From Brachypterus glaber (Eukaryota > Arthropoda > Insecta > Coleoptera > Kateretidae), in contig OY294044.1 of NCBI GenBank assembly GCA_958510825.1, positions 97,884,426 to 97,948,425 of the forward strand: a stretch of 64,000 nucleotides of DNA. The letters run 5' to 3'. Both the position numbers and the translations under genes were made by a program. Positions 11,861 to 47,667 of this stretch are shown piece after piece; position 1 is the stretch's first letter; the number at the start of each line of letters is the position of its first letter. The notes under the pieces were generated by a model, which had not been told where the DNA came from, searched no databases, and was given only the letters and a program-made list of their open reading frames with translations.

Positions 11861-11872
11861 AAGAGGTAAATA
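11861..11872 (+). repeat. Target-site duplication, left
   Basis: AAGAGGTAAATA, identical to 12661-12672, flanks the ribozyme palindrome. A 12-bp duplication indicates insertion as a discrete mobile unit, and the perfect match suggests a recent event. Confidence 0.8.
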
Positions 11873-11899
11873 TTTATTATTCCATCAATCTATTTTCTA

Positions 11900-11984
11900 A
11901 TCATCGTACAGAGTGATATTGGTAGACTGACAGTTTCGGGCTGCTGGCCCTCTTCAGTACCAAGAGTCAACTCTGCACGCTGAT
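11900..11984 (-). ncRNA. Type I hammerhead ribozyme, left arm
   Basis: Mirror image of the + strand ribozyme at 12501-12585, read on the minus strand, with the same CUGAAGA and GAAA core and the same helices. Predicted self-cleavage lies between 11925 (C17) and 11924. A minus-strand transcript would carry this copy as active and the right-arm copy as antisense. Confidence 0.8.
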
Positions 11985-12256
11985 TAAGAAAACGTTTTTA
12001 GACTTTACTCGCAAAAGGAATATAGCCATTAGATTGATGTAGACCTGTGCGCCATCTATTTCTAGATGTAGACAACTACTCATACCTCTCCTAATCTGGA
12101 GACTTTGAATGGTAGCAAGTTGAAGACTTGTGTGTCTCAAGCACATAGTACTACTAACGGGTGGTTAGACGTAAAATTAGTAAGGACAGAAATTTTTAAT
12201 TTTAAACAAAATTATAAAAATATTAATATATTATTCCATCAATCTATTTTCTAATA

Positions 12257-12610
12257 AATTAATATTTTTATAATTTTGTATAAAATTAAAAATTTCTGTC
12301 CTTACTAATTTTACGTCTAACCACCCGTTAGTGGTACTATGTGCTTGAGACACACAAGTCTTCAACTTGCTACCATTCAAAGTCTCCAGATTAGGAGAGG
12401 TATGAGTAGTTGTCTACATCTAGAAATAGATGGCGCACAGGTCTACATCAATCTAATGGCTATATTCCTTTTGCGAGTAAAGTCTAAAAACGTTTTCTTA
12501 ATCAGCGTGCAGAGTTGACTCTTGGTACTGAAGAGGGCCAGCAGCCCGAAACTGTCAGTCTACCAATATCACTCTGTACGATGATTAGAAAATAGATTGA
12601 TGGAATAATA
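12257..12610 (+). repeat. 354-bp ribozyme-bearing repeat unit
   Basis: The start of the unit, AATTAATATTTTTATAATTT, recurs at 12611. The unit ends with GATTGATGGAATAATA. The left arm carries one inverted unit preceded (in its own direction) by the last 25 or so bases of another. Thus both arms are cut from a tandem array, joined head to head at the centre. Confidence 0.75.
12501..12585 (+). ncRNA. Type I hammerhead ribozyme, right arm
   Basis: Self-cleaving RNA motif. Core CUGAAGA at 12528-12534 and GAAA at 12548-12551 match the invariant residues. Stem II is GGGC/GCCC (12535-12538, 12544-12547) with loop CAGCA. Stem III is ACU/AGU (12551-12553, 12557-12559) with loop GUC. C17 is 12560 with cleavage before 12561. 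Stem I is UUGGUA/UACCAA (12522-12527, 12561-12566), then an internal loop (UGACUC/UAUC), then a second helix CGUGCAGAGU/ACUCUGUACG with one G-U pair. An internal loop in stem I able to meet loop II is typical of natural, fast hammerheads. I expect it to cleave unless folding in the palindrome traps it. Confidence 0.87.
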
Positions 12611-12660
12611 AATTAATATTTTTATAATTTTGTTTAAAATTAAAAATTTCTGTCCTTACT

Positions 12661-12672
12661 AAGAGGTAAATA
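12661..12672 (+). repeat. Target-site duplication, right
   Basis: AAGAGGTAAATA, a perfect copy of 11861-11872. Confidence 0.8.
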
Positions 12673-14992: not shown

Positions 14993-17900
14993 TTAACCTC
15001 TCAGCCATCCAATTCTTTGAATATATCTAAGAAGATGTCTGGGAGTGATGCTGCTTATACCGGCCATGTCGAGCCAGTACTCGTCTAGCATGGACCCTCT
15101 TATTAAGGCTAACGCTGGACAGTGACATAACACATGTTCCATTGTTTCCTCTTCCATGTAGCATCCTCTACAGATGGGGTCGACTGGCTTCCCCATGATG
15201 TTAAGATGCTTATTTAGTTTGCAGTGACCTGTTACGATGCTTGCAAACTGTCTTAGGTTATCCCTTTTTAGTTGCATACAAAAGCGTGCTGTCTTTTCAC
15301 ACGGAGTGGGAAGGGCTGCTCTTGCATGTTTACAATCGTTTCTCGTAATCCAATTACGGGTGTGTTTTATGTGAGTTTCTTGATTAATGAGAGCTGTTTT
15401 AAAAGCGACAGATACAGGGATTATGGGCTCTGGACCAATAGGTACAGAGCCTGAGCCTGCTCGTGCCAATCTATCAGCTTCTTCATTGCCTACATTTCCA
15501 TTATGCCCCTTTACCCATGAGAGTGTAACAGTATTAGAAACTGCCGCTTCCTCCAGGGATTGGTGACATTCCAAAACTAGCTTTGAAGTAATTTTGAAAG
15601 ACTTGATTGCTTGTATGGAAGCTTTGCTATCCGTAAGAATAGTTATTCTTCTATTACTGATTTCCCTTTCAGAAATAGCTCTCGCAGCATTTGTTATGCC
15701 TATTACCTCTGCCTGAAAGACCGAGGCATGCTTGCCAAGGGAAATGCTTATTTCTAACTCTAGATCTGGGCAGAAAACTCCTGCACCTGATCCTTCAGTT
15801 GTCTTTGAACCATCAGTGTACATGACAATGTCAGGTACGCTGTCAGTTTCTTCTTTAGTGGAAGCATAAGCTTGGTATGATCTATTAAAGATATACCTGG
15901 GAGCAACTAGATCGGTCTGAGATTCAAGAATGGGAGCTTGTGACACAAACCGTTCAAGAATAGACTCATGTCCAGTACGCGTTCCTCTTGCATTCCACGT
16001 ACTATTTGCTTTCAGCCTAAGCGCTGTCTTTGCGGCCTCACCCTCAACAAAAATATTAAGGGGAGGAATACAAAGCAGAGTCTCTAAAGCTGCAGTTGGA
16101 GTTGATCGCATTGCACCGGTTATACTCATAAGAGCTAGTCTTTGAATATGATTTAGTTGCGTTCTTGCTGTAGTCAGTTGGGTTCTGGGCCACCATACAA
16201 CTGAGCCATATGTTAGCATAGGCCTTATGACAGCGGTGTACAGCCAAAGGGTGATCCTGGGAGACAAACCCCAAGATCTGCCCAGTGCTCTACGACACTG
16301 CCAAAAAGCTATGCATGCTTTTTCTGTTTTTTGCTTAAGGTGTGGTCCCCAACACAGTTTGCTGTCAAGAAGAATTCCCAGATACTTTACTTCTTTAGAA
16401 AAGCTGAGTTGTTTTCCGAAAAGAAATGGGACTTTGAGGTTTCCCAGTTTCCTTTTCTTAGTGAACAGGACCATCTCAGTCTTGGCTGGGTTAACCGAGA
16501 GAGAGTGATCATCACACCATTTCTGTAGAATATTGAGTGCGCGCTGAATGAGATCGCACAGCACGCTCTCAAAATTCCCTGTAAGTAGTATGACTATGTC
16601 GTCTGCATATCCTATTGTGTAGAAAGAATTATCGTTAAGGAGTGTTAATAGGCTGTCCACTACAAGGTTCCAAAGGAGAGGAGAAAGAACTCCACCTTGT
16701 GGGCAGCCTCTTGTTACAACTCCTCTTGTGATTAATCCCCCTATGTTTAGTTGAACTGCTCTCCATTCAAGCATGTGTTGTATCCACTCAATGAGTGTGG
16801 GTGATACACCATGTCTTTGTAGGGCAGTTTTAATGCTTTTAAAAGACGCTTTGTCAAACGCTCCTTCAACGTCGATAAACACAGAAAGTGTCGATGCTTT
16901 CAGTCCCAGGGATTTCTCGATTTGGGAAATTACAGCTCGGAGAGCTGATTCCGTCGATCTGCCAGGGATGTAGGCGTGTTGATTTGGGTGTAGTTTAACT
17001 CTAGAGAGTGCACCATCCCGAATTTCTTTGTCAACCAGTTTTTCTAACGTTTTTAAAAGAAAAGACGTCAGGCTAATTGGTCGGTAGGATTTAGCTAGTG
17101 AGTAGTCTTTCCTTCCAGGCTTAGGAATAAAGGTTACTTTAACTTCTCTCCATGCTTTCGGAATGTATTTGAAAGCTATACATGCCTGAAAAATGTGTTT
17201 TAGTGGACTGGAGATTATATCCAGGCCCCACTGCAAAAGCGCTGGGAATACTCCGTCCAATCCTGGAGATTTAAAGGGAGAAAAAGTCCCAATGGCCCAT
17301 TTTATGCGTTTCTCGTCAACCAGTTTGGAGGCCACTTTCCAGTCCTCTTTACTTGGAGGTGGAAGCGTATGTGGATGCCATTCCTGATTGGGAGTAATAA
17401 CACATCCTGGGAAATGAGTTTCTAGGAGTATTGTAGAGGTACTTTGAAGGTCATCTGTATATGAGCCATCATTCCTTTTAATACTACCTAGTTTCTGTGA
17501 TGAATCCTTGGAAAGGACTTTCTTTAGTCGGGCGGCGACCGTGGTAGATTCTATACTGCCACAAAAGTCCCTCCAAGCTCTCCTTTGATTTTCGCGAATT
17601 AATTTTTTGTATTCTTTTCGGTGCTCTGAATAAGCGGTCCAATCAGAATCCAACCGTGATCTCTTCGCCTTATTAAACAATTTTCTTGTTTCATTTTTCA
17701 GCTTTTGAAGTTTAGCACACCACCAGGGGTTAGTCAACTTCCTGTTTGCTGGAATTTTAATGGGACAAGAGTCCTCATATGAGTTAACGAGAGACCTTTG
17801 AAGATTATGTACATATTCTTCAATGTCGTTCGTTGAGTTAAAAACATTAGGGGGCTCCTTGACTCTGTTTTTCAGATGACTAATGAAAGCCTCCCTGTCT

Positions 17901-18622
17901 GTTTTCTTGGGGTTTCGATAGGCTTTTAACTCAGCTCTATCCAGATTTAACCTAAAGCGAATCCATCTGTGGTCCGAAAAGGAGGCCTCTGATGATACAC
18001 GCCAGTCAGTTATTTGTTTTGAGATATCAGAAGTGGCCAGTGTAATGTCAATTACAGTCTGACCCCGGCGTGTTACGAATGTAGGTTCGCATCCACGATT
18101 TAATATCTCTAGGTTTGTGCCAGATAGAAACTCTAGCATTACTTTGCCTCTTCCGTCGATGTTTTTGTTGCCCCACACAATGTGATGAGAGTTACTGTCA
18201 CATCCAACTATAAGGCTTTTTTTCTCCCGTTGGCAAAAGTTTATCAGGTTGGCAAGTTCCTCTGATGGAGGTTGCGTACCTGTATCTTGTGGGAGGTATG
18301 CCGATGCTATAAAAAGTTCTTCTTGGTTACCCTTTACACTATAGTTCATTCTCACAGTTGTTAGGTCAGCTGTGCTGAACTGAGTTACTAGAGTAGCTTC
18401 ATATTGCTTAGGTATGTATATACACGTCCTAGGCTTTTGAATATAGCTATTTACAAAAATAGTCCCTTTTAAGCTGCCGAAGCCGGAAACTTTCGATTTC
18501 ACAATCCAGGGTTCTTGGATTAGTGTTATTGTGTCCGCATTACTGTCCAGGTGACGGCAGATGGTAGCTACCGCCGCCCGGCAGTGTTGCAAGTTAATTT
18601 GTATAATCTCAAGTCCAGACAT
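14993..18622 (-). CDS. LINE ORF2 polyprotein: endonuclease, reverse transcriptase, RNase H
   Basis: 1209 residues. An N-terminal AP-like endonuclease (about 1-225) nicks target DNA: motifs IQIN (N10), LIQEPW (E37), GCDSNSHH (D142) and SFSDHRW (D217, H218). The reverse transcriptase (about 440-760) has KSPGLDG, SYRPISL, FIDVEGAFD (D584), RGCPQGGVLSPLLWNL and the catalytic YADD (672-675). RNase H (about 931-1055) shows YTDGS (D937), AEV (E972), TDSK (D998), KGHNGN (H1040) and NEEAD (D1050). A C-terminal CRGC..H..CHC zinc-finger-like motif (C1151, C1154, H1163, C1166/C1168) closes the protein. All catalytic residues are intact with no stop. The ATG lies 35 bases after ORF1 in a different frame, so translation probably reinitiates or starts internally. 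Confidence 0.95.
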   Translation of the reverse strand: MSGLEIIQINLQHCRAAVATICRHLDSNADTITLIQEPWIVKSKVSGFGSLKGTIFVNSYIQKPRTCIYIPKQYEATLVTQFSTADLTTVRMNYSVKGNQEELFIASAYLPQDTGTQPPSEELANLINFCQREKKSLIVGCDSNSHHIVWGNKNIDGRGKVMLEFLSGTNLEILNRGCEPTFVTRRGQTVIDITLATSDISKQITDWRVSSEASFSDHRWIRFRLNLDRAELKAYRNPKKTDREAFISHLKNRVKEPPNVFNSTNDIEEYVHNLQRSLVNSYEDSCPIKIPANRKLTNPWWCAKLQKLKNETRKLFNKAKRSRLDSDWTAYSEHRKEYKKLIRENQRRAWRDFCGSIESTTVAARLKKVLSKDSSQKLGSIKRNDGSYTDDLQSTSTILLETHFPGCVITPNQEWHPHTLPPPSKEDWKVASKLVDEKRIKWAIGTFSPFKSPGLDGVFPALLQWGLDIISSPLKHIFQACIAFKYIPKAWREVKVTFIPKPGRKDYSLAKSYRPISLTSFLLKTLEKLVDKEIRDGALSRVKLHPNQHAYIPGRSTESALRAVISQIEKSLGLKASTLSVFIDVEGAFDKASFKSIKTALQRHGVSPTLIEWIQHMLEWRAVQLNIGGLITRGVVTRGCPQGGVLSPLLWNLVVDSLLTLLNDNSFYTIGYADDIVILLTGNFESVLCDLIQRALNILQKWCDDHSLSVNPAKTEMVLFTKKRKLGNLKVPFLFGKQLSFSKEVKYLGILLDSKLCWGPHLKQKTEKACIAFWQCRRALGRSWGLSPRITLWLYTAVIRPMLTYGSVVWWPRTQLTTARTQLNHIQRLALMSITGAMRSTPTAALETLLCIPPLNIFVEGEAAKTALRLKANSTWNARGTRTGHESILERFVSQAPILESQTDLVAPRYIFNRSYQAYASTKEETDSVPDIVMYTDGSKTTEGSGAGVFCPDLELEISISLGKHASVFQAEVIGITNAARAISEREISNRRITILTDSKASIQAIKSFKITSKLVLECHQSLEEAAVSNTVTLSWVKGHNGNVGNEEADRLARAGSGSVPIGPEPIIPVSVAFKTALINQETHIKHTRNWITRNDCKHARAALPTPCEKTARFCMQLKRDNLRQFASIVTGHCKLNKHLNIMGKPVDPICRGCYMEEETMEHVLCHCPALALIRGSMLDEYWLDMAGISSITPRHLLRYIQRIGWLRG

Positions 18623-18657
18623 TGGGAATGACTATTTGGTGAGTTGAGATCCCAACA

Positions 18658-19881
18658 TCAACAGACCCCCTTATTGCTTGGAGGGCCGTCCTTGGCGATG
18701 GGGTCAGTGGATTCAGAGGTGAAGACTTCTTCAACCTCCATATCCCCCAGTGCCCCGCCTGATGTTGAAGCCTCACCCTCACCAGCCACTTCCTGAGGTT
18801 GGGCTTTTGTTAATTTAACAGTAAGGTAGGAAAATAGATATTTTACCTTACCTCCCCTACTGGTTATGGCTTGTGCGTCTTCCTCAGATATGCCGAAGAC
18901 AATAAGTTGACCTTTAGGGTCCTTCTTGACTTCCCTGTGGAAGACGCACCATTTTTTAACATTGGCCCATGTATTTAGACCTTCAAGGCGCAACTTGACC
19001 TTCTCCAGACCATCGTCATCGTTCGAGATCCAGATGGAGGCCTTTGTCAGCCTTGGAAGCTCGTCTTGAGGGACCACTGCTAGATTAGCTCCTTCCCATA
19101 AATCTCCCAGTCTGGGCACAGCGCCCTTAAGCCACGTGAGGGTACCGGAGTCCTCACACGTGATCCTCAGGATTTCGCCAGTGTGCTTCATACTGGAGAT
19201 TTGTGGGGGTGCTTTATTTTTAGCGGACAGAATTTCGTCCACTTGTTTTGTTAACCCTTTGACAACCAGGTCATACTGGGAGCTGGTTAGCTTACCCAGT
19301 TGGCTCTGCTTGTCAATGATGGCCACTTTCAGGTGCTTGGCAGCAGCCTGAGAGTAACCACTTGGGTTGATAGTAGGCCTATTAATGGATTTTTGCTTCT
19401 TCTTCTGCAATGCAGGAGAGGGGCTCGATCCATCTGACCTTATTCTTTTTGTGGCAGGAGTTCTTTCTCCAGCACTTCCACCTTTCGGTTTTAGCCCTGG
19501 TTTGGACCTACCTGCCGTATTTGCAGAAGATGACCCTGAGGGCTGCTGGCTAGACCCAGAGGTTTTTGAGGTGGCTTCTTGAGCCAGCCTCGCCTTCCTT
19601 CTGCGTTTCGCCTCAGCTCCACAGACTCTCTTCTTTTTAGGCTTCTCACTCGAACCGGGTGGAATGTTTCCAGTCCCAGTACCTGAGCTTGAAGCCTTGG
19701 GTTCCTCGGTGTTAGGTCGAACAATGTCCGTAGTCCCAACACTCGGGGGTTTTGGGTTTCCATCCAACAGGTTGCCTTTTGGCGTGCCTGTTGAAGGGCT
19801 GATGGGTTTGGTCCCACTTAGGTCATCTGACGACGGTCCTAAGTGGGATTGTGGGTTTTCAGGTTTTTTGTTAGATTCCAT
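18658..19881 (-). CDS. LINE ORF1 protein, DUF4780-like RNA-binding candidate
   Basis: 407 residues. Residues about 1-175 are low-complexity, Pro/Ser/Thr/Gly rich, with basic clusters (EKPKKKRVCG, AKRRRKAR, KKKQKS) that could bind RNA or serve as nuclear signals. Residues about 180-365 form a conserved-looking globular domain (VAIIDKQ, GEILRITCEDSGTLTWLKGA, ASIWISND, WCVFHREVKKD) that I recognise as DUF4780-like, a domain seen in ORF1 proteins of insect LINEs. The tail is acidic (GDMEVEEVF). No CCHC knuckles are visible. As ORF1 it should coat LINE RNA in the ribonucleoprotein. The start is the first ATG after the 5' UTR. The family name is from memory of the domain's look and was not searched. 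Confidence 0.82.
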   Translation of the reverse strand: MESNKKPENPQSHLGPSSDDLSGTKPISPSTGTPKGNLLDGNPKPPSVGTTDIVRPNTEEPKASSSGTGTGNIPPGSSEKPKKKRVCGAEAKRRRKARLAQEATSKTSGSSQQPSGSSSANTAGRSKPGLKPKGGSAGERTPATKRIRSDGSSPSPALQKKKQKSINRPTINPSGYSQAAAKHLKVAIIDKQSQLGKLTSSQYDLVVKGLTKQVDEILSAKNKAPPQISSMKHTGEILRITCEDSGTLTWLKGAVPRLGDLWEGANLAVVPQDELPRLTKASIWISNDDDGLEKVKLRLEGLNTWANVKKWCVFHREVKKDPKGQLIVFGISEEDAQAITSRGGKVKYLFSYLTVKLTKAQPQEVAGEGEASTSGGALGDMEVEEVFTSESTDPIAKDGPPSNKGVC

Positions 19882-20467
19882 GAACTAGTATATTGATTTC
19901 ATCCTTTTGGCTCCTCACCCTCCTCGGAGTCCTCACATCTGGGGACGTCATGTCACAACTGACACGATCGCCAAGGCTACCAAGAGGATATAGCCTCCAG
20001 GAAGGTGTTGCACATGAGAAGGTTGCGAGTCAGTCCTGAGATGACTCGGCCCCCTATGTGCCCCCTCCTCCCCAAGAGACTCACCCTGGTGACCCTCTGA
20101 CGGGACATCGCAGCCGATTGACCGAAATTGGGTTAGACTCCGGCCTCCCGTTTAGCTTCGTTCTAGGCCAAAGTGGTGTGTTGCTATTCGCTCAACCACC
20201 AGGACACTGTCACTCCACGACACGGGTATCCACGCACGGCACAAACACGTGGGGCTTGCTCGCAATGCACAACCCTCATTCATCCGCATTCTATGCAGTA
20301 GGGCCGACACGTGGGTTTTTAGGCCCAGGTCAGCCGGTCATCCCGCATTACTTGGATGAAATATTGGATCACACACTCTCCAACTCTGCAAAACCAAAGA
20401 GTGGAGATTTCTCCCCACTTTGGATTACGGATTTATCTATAGAAGAGATAGACCCAGTACCCGTGGG
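19882..20467 (-). promoter_or_regulatory. LINE 5' UTR with presumed internal promoter
   Basis: 586 bases between the upstream target duplication and the ORF1 ATG, G+C rich compared with the flanks. Full-length LINEs carry an internal Pol II promoter in this region so that the transcript starts at base 1 (minus strand 20467). I did not identify a specific initiator. An antisense frame of 146 codons (20058-20498) crosses the target duplication and is taken as chance. Confidence 0.6.
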
Positions 20468-21700: not shown

Positions 21701-21730
21701 GACTTGCGGAAACCAATAATGTATTCTGTA

Positions 21731-21996
21731 TGTTTGTTTTTATGTTTGTTTTTAACCTCGTACTATTCTACTTAATTAAGCATCCCCTAAGTCCAGGACT
21801 TGTGTGGGCTAGTAGTAGAGGGAACCACCGGCTTTAATTGACTTTCGAACCAATATATCTAGGGAGTACGCCTTCGCCAAATTTCAATTATTAATTAACT
21901 GAAAAAGGCAATCGGCGCCAGTGAGGTTTGAACTCACGATCATTAGATCAGTGTCAGGCTATATCGATGCCATTGACCACTGAGCTAAATCTCCCC
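21731..21996 (-). mobile_element. tRNA-derived SINE (family B), copy 1
   Basis: Minus strand: head GGGGAGATTTAGCTCAGTGG from 21996 with A box TAGCTCAGTGG and B-box-like GTTCAAACC, then the family B body, the stem-loop CCC-CT-AAGTCC-A-GGACTT-GTGT-GGG (21784-21808) and an A-rich (AAAAACA)-type tail. The head differs from copies 2 and 3 upstream of the B box. A 16-base segment of the body (GTCCGTTTCACTTATC in the other copies) is missing. Confidence 0.82.
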
Positions 21997-32335: not shown

Positions 32336-32599
32336 TTTTTTGTTTGTTTGTTTGTTTGTTTAAACTCGTACTTTTCTGTTTAATTAAGCATCCCCTAAGT
32401 CTAGGACTTGTGTGGGCTAGTAGTAGAGGGAACCACCGGCTTATACTGACTTTCGAACTAGTTTCTAGGGAGTGTCCGTTTCACTTATCGCCTTCGCCAA
32501 ATTTCAATTATTAATTAACTGAAAAAGGCAAATCGGCGCCATTGAGAATCGAACTCACGCTAGTAGGCTTGCTATATACACACTAGACCATGCCTCCCA
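32336..32599 (-). mobile_element. tRNA-derived SINE (family B), copy 2
   Basis: Minus strand from 32599: head TGGGAGGCATGGTCTAGTGT, B box AGTTCGATTCT, body, stem-loop (32392-32416, AAGTCC/GGACTT version with a CTA loop change), then a (CAAA)n tail (32336-32362). Very similar to copy 3. A short frame reads through the body and is not a gene. Confidence 0.85.
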
Positions 32600-38992: not shown

Positions 38993-39522
38993 ACCGTGGT
39001 GTTAGTGGGCTCTGTGCTATACATTATAAGATATTTGGTAACATTGGCAAATTATAGTGATTCAAGCTATTTATTATTACATTACATGTTTGTTTACATT
39101 ACATGTTTGTTTAACCTCGTACTATTCTACTTAATTAAGCATCCCCTAAGTCCAGGACTTGTGTGGGCTAGTAGTAGAGGGAACCACCGGCTTATACTGA
39201 CTTTCGAACCAGTTTCTAGGGAGTGTCCGTTTCACTTATCGCCTTCGCCAAATTTCAATTATTAATTAACTGAAAAAGGCAAATCGGCGCCAGTGAGAAT
39301 CGAACTCACGATAGTAGACTTGCTATGCATACGCGCTAGCCACTACGCTATGCCTCCCATAAAGGGACACGATAACTAATATAACTAATAATGTTAAAAA
39401 TAAATTAGAAACGATTATTACAGACACGATTATATTTATTACAGGCACTATTATAAATTTACAGAAATTTTATTATATTATAAAATATGCCTTATAGCGC
39501 TCTTAGCTATATTTTTTCCGTG
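38993..39522. mobile_element. MITE family M, copy 1, interrupted by a SINE
   Basis: TTAGTGGGCTCTGTGCTATA at the left and TATAGCGCTCTTAGCTATA then TTTTTTCCGTG at the right. The body matches 41868-42291 closely (TAAGATATTTGGTAACA, ACTAATAATGTTAAAAATAA, TTATTACAGGCACTATTATA). The SINE at 39088-39359 lies between AAGCTAT and AAGGGACAC, which are almost contiguous in the other copy. Confidence 0.75.
39088..39359 (-). mobile_element. tRNA-derived SINE (family B), copy 3
   Basis: Minus strand from 39359: TGGGAGGCATAGCGTAGTGG head, B box AGTTCGATTCT, full body with GTCCGTTTCACTTATC complement, stem-loop 39143-39167 (CCC/GGG and AAGTCC/GGACTT helices), then AAAC-type tail with an ACATTACATG interruption. 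It is inserted in MITE family M copy 1. Confidence 0.88.
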
Positions 39523-43570: not shown

Positions 43571-43572
43571 TA

Positions 43573-45894
43573 CAGGGTGTCCCTGAATTGCTTGGCCAAA
43601 CTTTACATACGGGATGAATGGCTCAAAACTGTTAAAAAAGTTCCTATAAACATATATCCTAAAACGACTATTAAGGGAGCTACGCCCCTTCAAATGGGGT
43701 TCCAAAAATTCGATTTTTATTTAAGAACTCAGGAACCCTTCGTGTTATATCAACGAGATATTGCATGTAATATATTATTAATAGGGCCTATCAAGCGATG
43801 GTGTTTGCATGTAGTTACTTTAAACAGGGGCGTCCGAAATGGGGGGGCCTTATCACTTTTTTGCCCCAAACTTTTTTCTGTGCAACTTTTTTGTAGATTT
43901 ATGATAAGAATATTATTCCTCAGGTAAAGGTACATAAAAAAGGTACTCTTATTGTAATACCGTAGGATTAACCGGTTTCGAGAAAAATTCATTTGAACGT
44001 TAAGTTTCACGCTTCGAGGACGAAAAATTAAATACTAAAATATTGAAAACAAAAATTTTAATAATGCGGGTTCTAGGTACATTAAAATTAATTTGGTTTG
44101 GCTCTTAGATAAAAGTCACAAATAAGTTAGGTTAGATCTTACAGTTAATTTTTTGCGTTCTGCGTTTTGTGAATATTTCATGTCATGATTTTTTTTCTAA
44201 TGGTTATGGTCCTGGCTGCAATTCATCAGCGTCTTTGTGAGAGAGGATCTTTTAAACGAAATACTGTAGATTGTGGGGTTCAAAGAAGCACTAGAACGCC
44301 GGCAGTTGATGAAGATGTTCTCAACAGTATGTCGGTATGGAGAGTGCATGAACAGCTTTACCCATATCACTTACAGCGAGTGCAGGGTCTTATGGGAGCT
44401 GATTTTCAACCACGAATGCTATTTTGTAACTGGTTTCTACAGCAGTGTATTAATCCAAATTTCCAATCTGTAGTGCTCTTTACAGACGAAGCAACATTTA
44501 CAAGGGATGCAATTATTAATTTCCATAATGACCATCAATGGGCTGAAGAGAATCCTTATGCGATTAGGCAATCAAGGTACCAACAAACTTTCTCATGCAA
44601 CATTTGGGCTGGGATTGTTGGCGATTATTTAATTGGGCCAATGTTTTTACCAGACAGATTAAACGGGCAAAATTATAGGGAGTTTCTGGAAAATGATATA
44701 CCCCTCTTACTTGAGAACGTCCCATTGGAAACGCGCCGTCACTTATGGTTAATGCATGGGGCACCAGCCCATTTCAGTCTTCTAGCTAGGAAATACCTCA
44801 ACAATAATTATCCGGATCGTTGGATTGGCAGTAGTGGACCTGTTGCGTGGCCACCGCGTTCTCCAGATTGCAATCCTTTAGATTTTTTCTTATGGGGCCA
44901 CCTAAAAAATCTTGTTTATACAACACCGATCCTCACCTTAGAAGACCTGCGCGAACGCATAAATGAAAGTTTTCTTGTAGTCCGAAATAGCCCCGGAATT
45001 CTTGAGCGAGTTCGGCAATCAATGCTTCGAAGATGCGCAGCCTGTACTGCTAGTGAAGGAGGACATTTCGAGCAATTACTCTAACCTTGTTGTTGTTGTT
45101 GTTTTTGTTGTTTAAAAAAAAATTGCTAATTTATTCCAATTATAAAATTAATAAGTAACTTTTTAAAATGCAATGCTTGGCCAATCATTTCAGGGACACA
45201 AAATTACAACAAAAGGATAAGCAGATCCAGGTTCAATGGATAACCAGGTTTAAGGACCATAACCATTAGAAAAAAAATCACGAAATATTCACAAAACGCA
45301 GAACGCAAAAAATTAACTGTAAGATCCTAACCTAACTTATTTGTGACTTTTATCTAAGAGCCAAACCAAATTAATTTTAATTTACCTAGAACCCGCATTA
45401 TTAAAATTTTTGTTTTCAATATTTTAGTATTTAATTTTTCGTCCTCGAAGCGTGAAACTTCACATTCAAATGAATTTTTCTCGAAACCGGTTAATCCTAC
45501 GGTATTACAATAAGAGTACCTTTTTTATGTATCTTTACCTGAGGAATAATATTCTTATCATAAATCTACAAAAAAGTTGCACAGAAAAAAGTTTGGGGCA
45601 AAAAAGTGATAAGCCCCCCCCCCATTTCGGACGCACCTGTTTAAAGTAACTACATGCAAACACCATCGCTTGATAGGCCCTATTAATAATATATTACATG
45701 CAATATCTCGTTGATATAACACAAAGGGTTCATGAGTTATTAAATAAAAATCGAATTTTTGGAACCCCATTTGAAGGGGCGTATTTCATCCCTTAATAGT
45801 CGTTTTAGGCTATATGTTTATAGGAACTTTTTTAACAGTTTTGAGCCATTCATCCCGTATGTAAAGTTTGGCCAAGCAATTCAGGGACACCCTG
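43573..45894. mobile_element. DD41D-type Tc1/mariner transposon with 640-bp inverted repeats
   Basis: Bounded by TA at 43571-43572 and 45895-45896. Termini CAGGGTGTCCCTGAATTGCT and AGCAATTCAGGGACACCCTG are exact inverted repeats. The arms run to about 44213 and from about 45253 and stay alignable throughout with few differences. Arms this long are unusual for Tc1/mariner elements. Between them lies a transposase-like frame. The arms include the first codons of that frame. Confidence 0.88.
44185..45084 (+). pseudogene. Tc1/mariner (DD41D spacing) transposase, catalytically defective
   Basis: 299 residues, open to the stop. DDE/D motifs: FTDEATF (D101), then LWLMHGAPAHF, where family members have DGAPAH, then SPDCNPLDFFLWG (D233). 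Position 191 is His (CAT, 44755-44757) instead of the second catalytic Asp; 41 residues separate it from D233, the spacing of the DD41D (rosa) group. HPYHLQRVQ-like (YPYHLQRVQGL) and the C-terminal GGHFEQLL are typical of the family. The N-terminal DNA-binding part is missing: the first ten codons come from the inverted repeat, and the linker after VDEDVLNSMS looks internally deleted. Excision activity is not expected. The start codon is arbitrary. Confidence 0.85.
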
Positions 45895-45896
45895 TA

Positions 45897-47166: not shown

Positions 47167-47212
47167 ATTAATAAACAAATATCGGGACTAGGACTTTAAA
47201 TAAAAACACTAA

Positions 47213-47266
47213 CTTTTATGCACTAGCGACGTTTCGTCTTTAATCAAGACTTTATCAAGCTAAAAG
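47213..47266 (-). ncRNA. Hammerhead-like motif, left arm
   Basis: Mirror copy of 47568-47621 on the minus strand, with the same unusual core. Confidence 0.4.
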
Positions 47267-47567
47267 AGAGAAAAAGACCTTATGTAATAATAACATAAAA
47301 AAATATATAACTTAAAAAAAAAAATATTAAAAAAATTAAAAACGTCTACTTTTTAATCTTATGCCTAGATAATACGAAAAACATTTACCTTAGCATACTT
47401 AAAACACTACATTTAACATAAATATTATTTAAATAAACAATTACGAACAATAAACAAAACTATAGAACCGTACACGTAGACATATTTCAAATTAACTGTT
47501 TTTTTAATATTTTTTTTTTTAAGTTATATATTTTTTTATGTTATTATTACATAAGGTCTTTTTCTCT

Positions 47568-47621
47568 CTTTTAGCTTGATAAAGTCTTGATTAAAGACGA
47601 AACGTCGCTAGTGCATAAAAG
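47568..47621 (+). ncRNA. Hammerhead-like motif, right arm
   Basis: CUUUUAGC, then UUGAUAA in place of CUGANGA, one extra A, stem II GUCUU/AAGAC, GAAA (47599-47602), CGUC, then GCUAGUGCAUAAAAG. Stem I pairs AGC/GCU and CUUUU/AAAAG around an AGUGCAU bulge. Stem III would be the self-complementary ACGU, which forms only between two copies, as in dimeric Penelope-type hammerheads. Core bases 3 and 8 are U and A rather than C and G, so their tertiary pair could be kept. The extra A and the core changes make activity doubtful. Confidence 0.42.
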
Positions 47622-47667
47622 TTAGTGTTTTTATTTAAAGTCCTAGTCCCGATATTTGTTTATTAAT

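Follow-up and report, generated by a model that had tools for sequence, protein, structure and literature searches.

Head-to-head insertions of a hammerhead-bearing, retrozyme-like unit in Brachypterus glaber and their likeness to resident Penelope-like elements

Architecture of the insertion

The window, that is, the whole 64-kb stretch of Brachypterus glaber DNA analysed here, contains a 788-bp insert (11873-12660) between two direct 12-bp copies of AAGAGGTAAATA (Table 1). Two inverted arms of 362 nt (11872-12233 and 12252-12613), separated by a spacer of 18 nt, are 99% complementary, with 3 bases differing between the paired parts. The arms are built from a unit with a period of 354, which we numbered from the first base past the ribozyme cut (u1). 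The left arm, on the minus strand, runs from u24 to u53 of the following unit (384 nt), and the right arm, on the plus strand, runs from u46 to u102 (411 nt). The right arm has an additional 49 nt (u54-u102) beyond the end of the left arm, and the left arm has an additional 22 nt (u24-u45) before the start of the right arm. The longest ATG frame, present once per arm, encodes 59 aa, and no poly(A) was seen at either end of the copy. A sequence-only reading of this stretch had described a genuine insertion with a perfect target duplication and with 354-bp units in partial tandem, and both points hold: the two 12-bp copies are identical and both arms exceed one unit. This copy forms a near-perfect palindrome, with a ribozyme in each arm, because both arms happened to exceed one unit.

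Table 1. Coordinates of the features of the copy in the window
Feature	Position	Strand	Remark
Target-site duplication, left copy (AAGAGGTAAATA)	11861-11872		last A is also u53
Site-A arm, cDNA start at about u52, round more than one 354-nt unit to u24	11872-12255	-	
Type I hammerhead, left arm; predicted cut between 11925 and 11924	11897-11986	-	descriptor
TAAT overlap (microhomology) at the head-to-head cDNA junction	12252-12255		
Site-B arm, cDNA start at about u100, round more than one unit to u46	12252-12662	+	
One complete 354-bp retrozyme unit	12252-12605	+	
Type I hammerhead, right arm; predicted cut after 12560	12499-12588	+	descriptor, fold
Right-arm hammerhead core, CTGAAGA and GAAA	12528-12534 and 12548-12551	+	
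Target-site duplication, right copy (AAGAGGTAAATA)	12661-12672		first AA is also u101-102

Predicted hammerhead ribozyme

A hammerhead descriptor (core and stems I-III) had just two matches in the 64-kb window, one in each arm, compared with 1 match in total across 100 dinucleotide-shuffled versions. This agrees with the type I hammerhead that had been proposed earlier for each arm, and the cut predicted then for the plus strand falls at the same position in our analysis. Stem I has 6 bp at the core and is longer past an internal loop, stem II has 4 bp and stem III has 3 bp. Base 7 of the core is A, not U; position 7 of the hammerhead core is said to accept any base. In the covariance-model scan suggested earlier, the Rfam hammerhead models stayed below threshold on the window ribozyme, and a single Rfam model, RAGATH-1-hammerhead, appeared at 21.3 bits (E 0.076, 101 nt), under its cut-off of 56.3 bits. 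The lowest-energy fold was a competitor at -37.6 kcal/mol, compared with -31.3 kcal/mol for the enforced hammerhead. Since Rfam scores lie below the cut-off and the competitor fold is favoured, the predicted ribozyme rests on its motif and on its conservation in the family. The better evidence is this family-wide conservation: the core is intact in 92 of the 94 units that cover it, and at least one intact unit is present in all 40 genomic copies described below. The exact ribozyme pattern gave 0 matches in prokaryote and viral contigs.

A complete core in both orientations was present in 12/40 copies, so the two-ribozyme layout follows from arm length. The two opposed ribozymes had been read as a co-transcriptional switch, an idea that we could not support: an equilibrium calculation at 19 nascent lengths had the right arm paired with the left at every one, so the complete transcript is expected to fold into a hairpin that blocks the ribozyme. 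There is no sign of a selected function. As speculation, small RNA against the family might be a product of such whole-locus hairpin RNA.

The family in the genome

Searching the 648-Mb genome (842 contigs) for the exact ribozyme core revealed 3433 matches (1774 + 1659), with 0 matches for the reversed-pattern control. The genome search for other copies of the unit, recommended in the sequence-only reading and conducted with one arm, returned 511 candidates, 40 of which were scored; it gave 40 distinct copies once double views were removed, 35 of them head-to-head. Rows L018, L024 and L042 show L001, L003 and L043 a second time or in cut form and were dropped ahead of the counts. Full-length matches among the scored candidates were 99-100% identical; the family is abundant and its copies are young. 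The 354-bp unit is AT-rich, forms arms of up to 5.5 units and contains no frame for a reverse transcriptase (RT) or a GIY-YIG nuclease, and an LTR layout was absent from all 40 copy maps.

The 40 copies were chosen by likeness to the whole unit starting at site A (Table 1), and the sample is therefore biased to young copies with a long A arm. A positional sample, less biased on arm length, was made up of the first 100 ribozyme cores on contig C1, which form 66 clusters. Among these, opposite-strand neighbours were head-to-head in 13 cases and tail-to-tail in 0, and same-strand neighbours were spaced by exactly 354 nt in 18/21. The longest array among the 100 cores has six cores in a row at 354-nt spacing (G000:C1:9959768-9961564). 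Provided that the ratio of 100 cores to 66 clusters is typical, the ~3400 cores of the genome would amount to about 2000 copies. Copies were fetched for 10 of the first 11 clusters, one three-core cluster being omitted for its size. Half of these 10 copies are visibly head-to-head (L075, L077, L078, L080 and L082); the remaining ones are single-armed or degraded, and two of the single-arm copies (L076 and L079) end near site B.

Anatomy of the insertions

In 35 of the 40 copies, an antisense segment is followed by a sense segment, with the 5' sides meeting mid-copy; our script called the other five (L008, L009, L013, L017 and L022) not head-to-head. Target duplications of 12-16 bp were likewise present in 35/40 copies, and duplications of at least 10 bp (n = 37) had a mean GC of 15%. 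In a control with displaced boundaries, the duplication finder reached 12 bp in 0/119 cases.

The trimmed outer ends fall in two narrow groups, u49-54 (site A) and u95-101 (site B), for which bins of 46-56 and 92-104 were chosen post hoc. A 10-18-bp duplication accompanies 32 of the head-to-head copies, and 29 of these have both ends inside the bins. All 29 combine one A with one B end (16 A-B and 13 B-A; A-A 0, B-B 0), an outcome that independent, equal choice of the two sites would give with a probability of 0.5^29. The head-to-head copies outside this count are three of 35 that have no 10-18-bp duplication (L004, L011 and L039) and three of 35 with one end outside the bins (L014, L023 and L040). 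By eye or with slightly wider bins, L004, L011, L014, L023 and L040, as well as the interrupted copy L013, also fit A plus B, and L039 does not resolve into this pattern. The copies that resolve thus have two exclusive start sites. In the positional sample, duplications of 14-16 bp flank two head-to-head copies, whose ends are 45/97 and 46/96; on the A side, 45 and 46 lie slightly under the observed A range.

The inner ends are scattered across the unit and differ from copy to copy. Inner junctions of the 35 copies have a 1-8 nt overlap in 24, are blunt in 4 and contain 1-12 nt of filler in 7. Mean homology at the filler-free junctions (n = 28) was 2.5 nt, versus 0.75 nt at random, and 0/5000 resamples were as high. 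The arms run across the ribozyme cut and range from 44 to 1958 nt for A and from 22 to 992 nt for B, the A arm being the longer in 24/32 copies of this biased sample. At the target, T was found at +2 of the cut in 26/29 cases on the A-primed strand and in 22/29 on the B-primed strand; the +1 base is partly fixed by duplication trimming, and the target signal is weak.

Because both flanks of a head-to-head insert join cDNA beginnings, both cut strands appear to have primed reverse transcription, and because the ends of the copies that resolve are always one A and one B, each target strand appears to have primed its own cDNA. The palindrome itself had been regarded earlier as the mobile unit. 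This part of the sequence-only reading is not borne out, since the inner junctions vary by copy and the palindrome would arise at insertion through priming on both strands. An assembly artefact, named there as a possible refutation, is unlikely and was rejected given the many copies with different junctions and duplications.

One copy, L013, contains ~430 bp of unrelated sequence (1864-2294) between retrozyme parts, apparently within one target duplication. Comparable captured sequence is described for Penelope pLTRs (PMC3846280, partial text).

Uniformity of units within copies

Sites that vary between copies include u186 (T/A) and u234 (A/G). At six chosen variable sites, copies with mixed units numbered 0/33, 0/18, 0/18, 1/24, 2/29 and 1/38, compared with permutation means of 4.5-12.8 mixed copies, and at each site 0/2000 shuffles were as low. 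The recurring minority base at u100, u105 and u336 is that of L043, so the result depends mainly on u60, u186 and u234. A minority base is common to both arms in eight copies (L001, L015, L025, L027, L029, L036, L039 and L041), and in L035 it is present in two of three units. L043, with its 5.5-unit arm, is uniform at 5/6 sites and has one odd unit at u234, and the arms of L040 carry different bases at two sites, which indicates that two RNAs can be used. At sites read in at least three units, 8 substitutions were present in all units, 35 in a single unit and 2 in an intermediate number; only a few of the remaining, mostly single-unit changes recur in a second copy.

The units of a copy are uniform as if both cDNAs had been copied round one RNA circle from two starts. 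Gene conversion between arms, or linear multimers from a uniform locus, could mimic part of this uniformity. As an alternative with the same priming of both target strands, the template might have been linear RNA, a multimer read from tandem genomic units and left uncut. The first 100 cores include tandems with as many as 6, and in an in vitro study of Penelope, ribozyme cutting was unnecessary and the main substrate was unprocessed RNA (PMC11167929). Nevertheless, the family-variable sites are uniform within a copy and other changes occur mostly in single units, and the ribozyme core has remained intact in all but two of the units covering it. We consider a linear template unlikely and prefer the RNA circle.

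Resident Penelope-like elements

A search of the genome for GIY-YIG gave at least 125 matches (150 scored of 419 candidates), including several open frames of ~680-813 aa, which is Penelope size, and one longer frame. The 813-aa frame of L074 contains RVT_1 and GIY-YIG domains. This locus has a partial tandem copy (period 3228) with a hammerhead-like motif in each repeat; its inverted arm enters a masked stretch, and its tandem repeat stops 68 nt beyond the hammerhead-like cut, which we placed by the NUH convention. An inverted segment was found in 16/31 fetched GIY-YIG loci, and 13 of the 16 entered the duplication test (L047, L069 and L074 were left out). A duplication of 11-18 bp was present in 10/13, and the displaced control reached 11 bp in 2/39. 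In all 10 loci, only one arm carries an extra tail of 26-37 nt (the sense arm in 6, the inverted arm in 4), and the distances from the hammerhead-like cut to the ends are 50-68 and 83-100 nt, in comparison to about 51 and 97 nt in the retrozyme. For site A, the distance of ~51 in the retrozyme compares with 50-55 in one Penelope group but 62-68 in the two others; in the first of these groups (4/10), the three displayed copies have a degenerate hammerhead-like core.

The 354-bp unit differs from these elements in having no frame for the RT and nuclease that Penelope elements encode (period 3228 in L074), and its hammerhead, with a 3-bp stem III and a loop, is unlike the minimal hammerheads of the resident Penelopes. 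Of an autonomous Penelope-like partner, the search for which had been suggested earlier, there are candidates: residents with RVT_1 and GIY-YIG domains are present, but convincing similarity of the unit to one Penelope family was not found, the matches being mostly weak and AT-rich. A diverged relative of the stem I region of the ribozyme (37 nt, 86%) lies in L047 at 325-420, ~0.9 kb from the GIY-YIG frame and on the opposite strand.

The Penelope enzyme of Anolis (PAc) cuts and extends both strands and starts reverse transcription inside the RNA, and the Penelope tail is the stretch between two start sites (PMC11167929). In the Anolis element the cut lies 26 nt into the ORF and the start at 111-118 (PMC11167929), from which we computed a distance of 85-92 nt. 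The same in vitro study found the start site to be no different between strands, which counts against the present reading. The Anolis enzyme prefers ATT in AT-rich DNA (PMC11167929), to which the +2 T of the retrozyme targets bears a loose likeness only. Penelope elements have a hammerhead just upstream of their ends, and both strands are cut and extended, as we propose for the retrozyme (PMC11167929). Head-to-head arms with duplications of 8-10 bp, like the retrozyme copies here, are known from Penelope of Adineta vaga (PMC3846280, partial text), and Penelope elements with inverted pLTRs have a 31-bp tail on one arm and partial tandems (PMC3846280, partial text; PMC11167929).

Other routes to an inverted copy

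LINE-1 twin priming likewise produces two cDNAs, one per strand, head to head within a duplication (PMC2837659, partial text), and a rare event of this type by a LINE enzyme might have created an inverted copy. The 5' part is inverted and the 3' part in sense orientation, as in twin-priming products, which share the target duplication and the junction microhomology, and a LINE frame with RT and endonuclease domains is encoded in the window (14993-18631). However, twin priming is a variant outcome for LINE-1, with poly(A) as the usual start of one cDNA (PMC2837659, partial text), whereas both retrozyme starts are internal and fixed and the ends of the window copy lack poly(A). Head-to-head copies are moreover common here, both in the biased sample (35/40) and in the positional one (5/10), and the two fixed internal starts and the one-arm tail match the resident Penelope copies. 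We regard twin priming by a LINE enzyme as very improbable. A one-off event of this kind had been considered for the window copy because one arm continues the other modulo 354, overlapping it by 8 nt; this contiguity is absent in other copies, was taken as coincidence, and the reading was rejected.

Snap-back copying, in which a self-primed second strand would make one arm from the other, follows the self-priming proposed by Arkhipova and colleagues for Penelope palindromes (PMC3846280, partial text). Against it, there are large differences between the arms across copies, in how long they are and in where they end inside the insert, and the outer ends are fixed starts on both sides. Each arm of the window copy has bases absent from the other, so neither was simply copied from the other; we rejected snap-back copying as scarcely credible. 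A foldback DNA transposon or MITE with long terminal inverted repeats and a ribozyme by chance has practically no likelihood, even with other long inverted repeats in the window (e.g., 43571-44213 and 45253-45896, 96%), since the inner ends are variable, units are in partial tandem and uniform within a copy, duplication length varies, and the two fixed ends differ by 46 nt with no constant terminal inverted repeats.

Probable priming on both target strands

Based on the anatomy of the copies, we consider it probable that the window contains an insertion of a non-autonomous retrozyme of the animal type, made by copying an RNA circle into both target strands through Penelope-type priming. By analogy with published animal retrozymes, a transcript of tandem units would be cut by its hammerheads into 354-nt monomers that are closed into circles. 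A Penelope-like enzyme, with a telomerase-like RT and a GIY-YIG nuclease, would then cut an AT-rich target, the strands being cut 12-16 bp apart, and each target 3' end would prime its own cDNA on the RNA. To judge from the copy ends, one strand would start at site A, ~51 nt past the cut, and the other at site B, ~97 nt past it. The cDNAs would run round the RNA, which we infer to be circular, for the up to 5.5 units seen in the arms, and would be joined head to head, at a point that varies and in most cases across the few bases of microhomology observed at the junctions. The later steps of the Penelope insertion reaction are described as not yet validated by the authors of the Anolis study (PMC11167929). 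The head-to-head layout, the two exclusive start sites of the copies that resolve, the target duplications, the uniform units and the matching layout of the resident Penelope elements are direct observations; the circle, the Penelope enzyme and the ribozyme activity are put forward as the probable means.

Animal non-LTR retrozymes resemble the window unit in their type I hammerhead, non-coding repeats of ~300 bp, occurrence as dimers to multimers and low GC (PMC7229834, partial text). The window family has the features of the class, namely a predicted type I hammerhead, a multimeric unit within ~170-400 bp, a GC below 50% and no protein. The target duplications of published members exceed 4 bp, compared with 12-16 bp in 35/40 copies here, and these members are described as tandem repeats, unlike our head-to-head copies (PMC7229834, partial text). 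PMC7229834, as far as its text was available, describes neither insertions of head-to-head layout, for which a term search also gave 0 matches, nor pairs of start sites, nor units that are uniform within each copy. Plant LTR retrozymes are likewise gene-free mobile elements with hammerhead-delimited circular RNA, but differ in having a type III hammerhead, LTRs, a size of ~700 nt, 4-bp duplications and a proposed Gypsy helper (PMC7229834, partial text). The sequence-only reading had seen a likeness to both Penelope-like elements and retrozymes, and unit, ribozyme and head-to-head layout agree with it. It knew of no described class with this arrangement; the partly available sources give no retrozyme counterpart, but tailed head-to-head copies of Penelope are known (PMC3846280, partial text).

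For animal retrozymes, a circular RNA intermediate and a Penelope helper were proposed by Cervera and de la Pena in 2020 (PMC7229834, partial text). Both the circle as template and the Penelope enzyme stand as hypotheses (PMC7229834, PMC7761336, partial texts), and the repeats show no conserved motif that would reveal the helper (PMC7761336, partial text). Taken together with PMC8969392, PMC12910113 and PMC11722881 (partial texts), the papers cited here cover animal retrozymes, these proposals and tailed head-to-head Penelopes. In the open-access literature, as available in part, we found no work that joins retrozymes with tailed head-to-head Penelope copies. The anatomy of the copies bears on both hypotheses and makes them testable; together with the likeness to resident Penelopes, it supports a circular-RNA template and a Penelope helper, as judged from the genome sequence. 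It also suggests a simple rule for insertion, in which two different fixed sites each give rise to the cDNA of one strand, and places the Penelope tail and inverted repeats in the same frame as the retrozyme insertions.

More tentatively, and with somewhat less than even confidence in the reading as a whole, retrozyme and Penelope RNAs may share a two-site loading device set by the distance from the hammerhead. Two enzyme subunits would hold one RNA, at ~50-68 nt and at ~83-101 nt past the cut, and one cDNA would be made per target strand, always one per site. If so, the hammerhead would be both the maker of the circle and part of the landmark by which the enzyme recognizes the RNA. Animal retrozymes would then be parasites with circular RNA, for which priming on both strands is the regular mode of insertion.

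Other features in the window

A non-LTR retrotransposon lies on the minus strand at 14993-19884, with a 1212-aa frame (RT, endonuclease and RNase H) and a 408-aa frame (DUF4780). At 43571-45896 there is a DNA transposon-like element with terminal inverted repeats of ~645 bp at 96% and a 303-aa frame (44173-45084), which gave no Pfam match at 0.001 and which we take to resemble a Tc/mariner transposase. A perfect inverted repeat of 169 bp (47167-47335 and 47499-47667) has a spacer of 163 bp. The only tRNA match in the window, tRNA-Ala at 39285-39357 on the minus strand, falls inside a repeat, perhaps a tRNA-derived SINE, of which the window contains at least two further partial copies (21730-21940 and 32353-32586).
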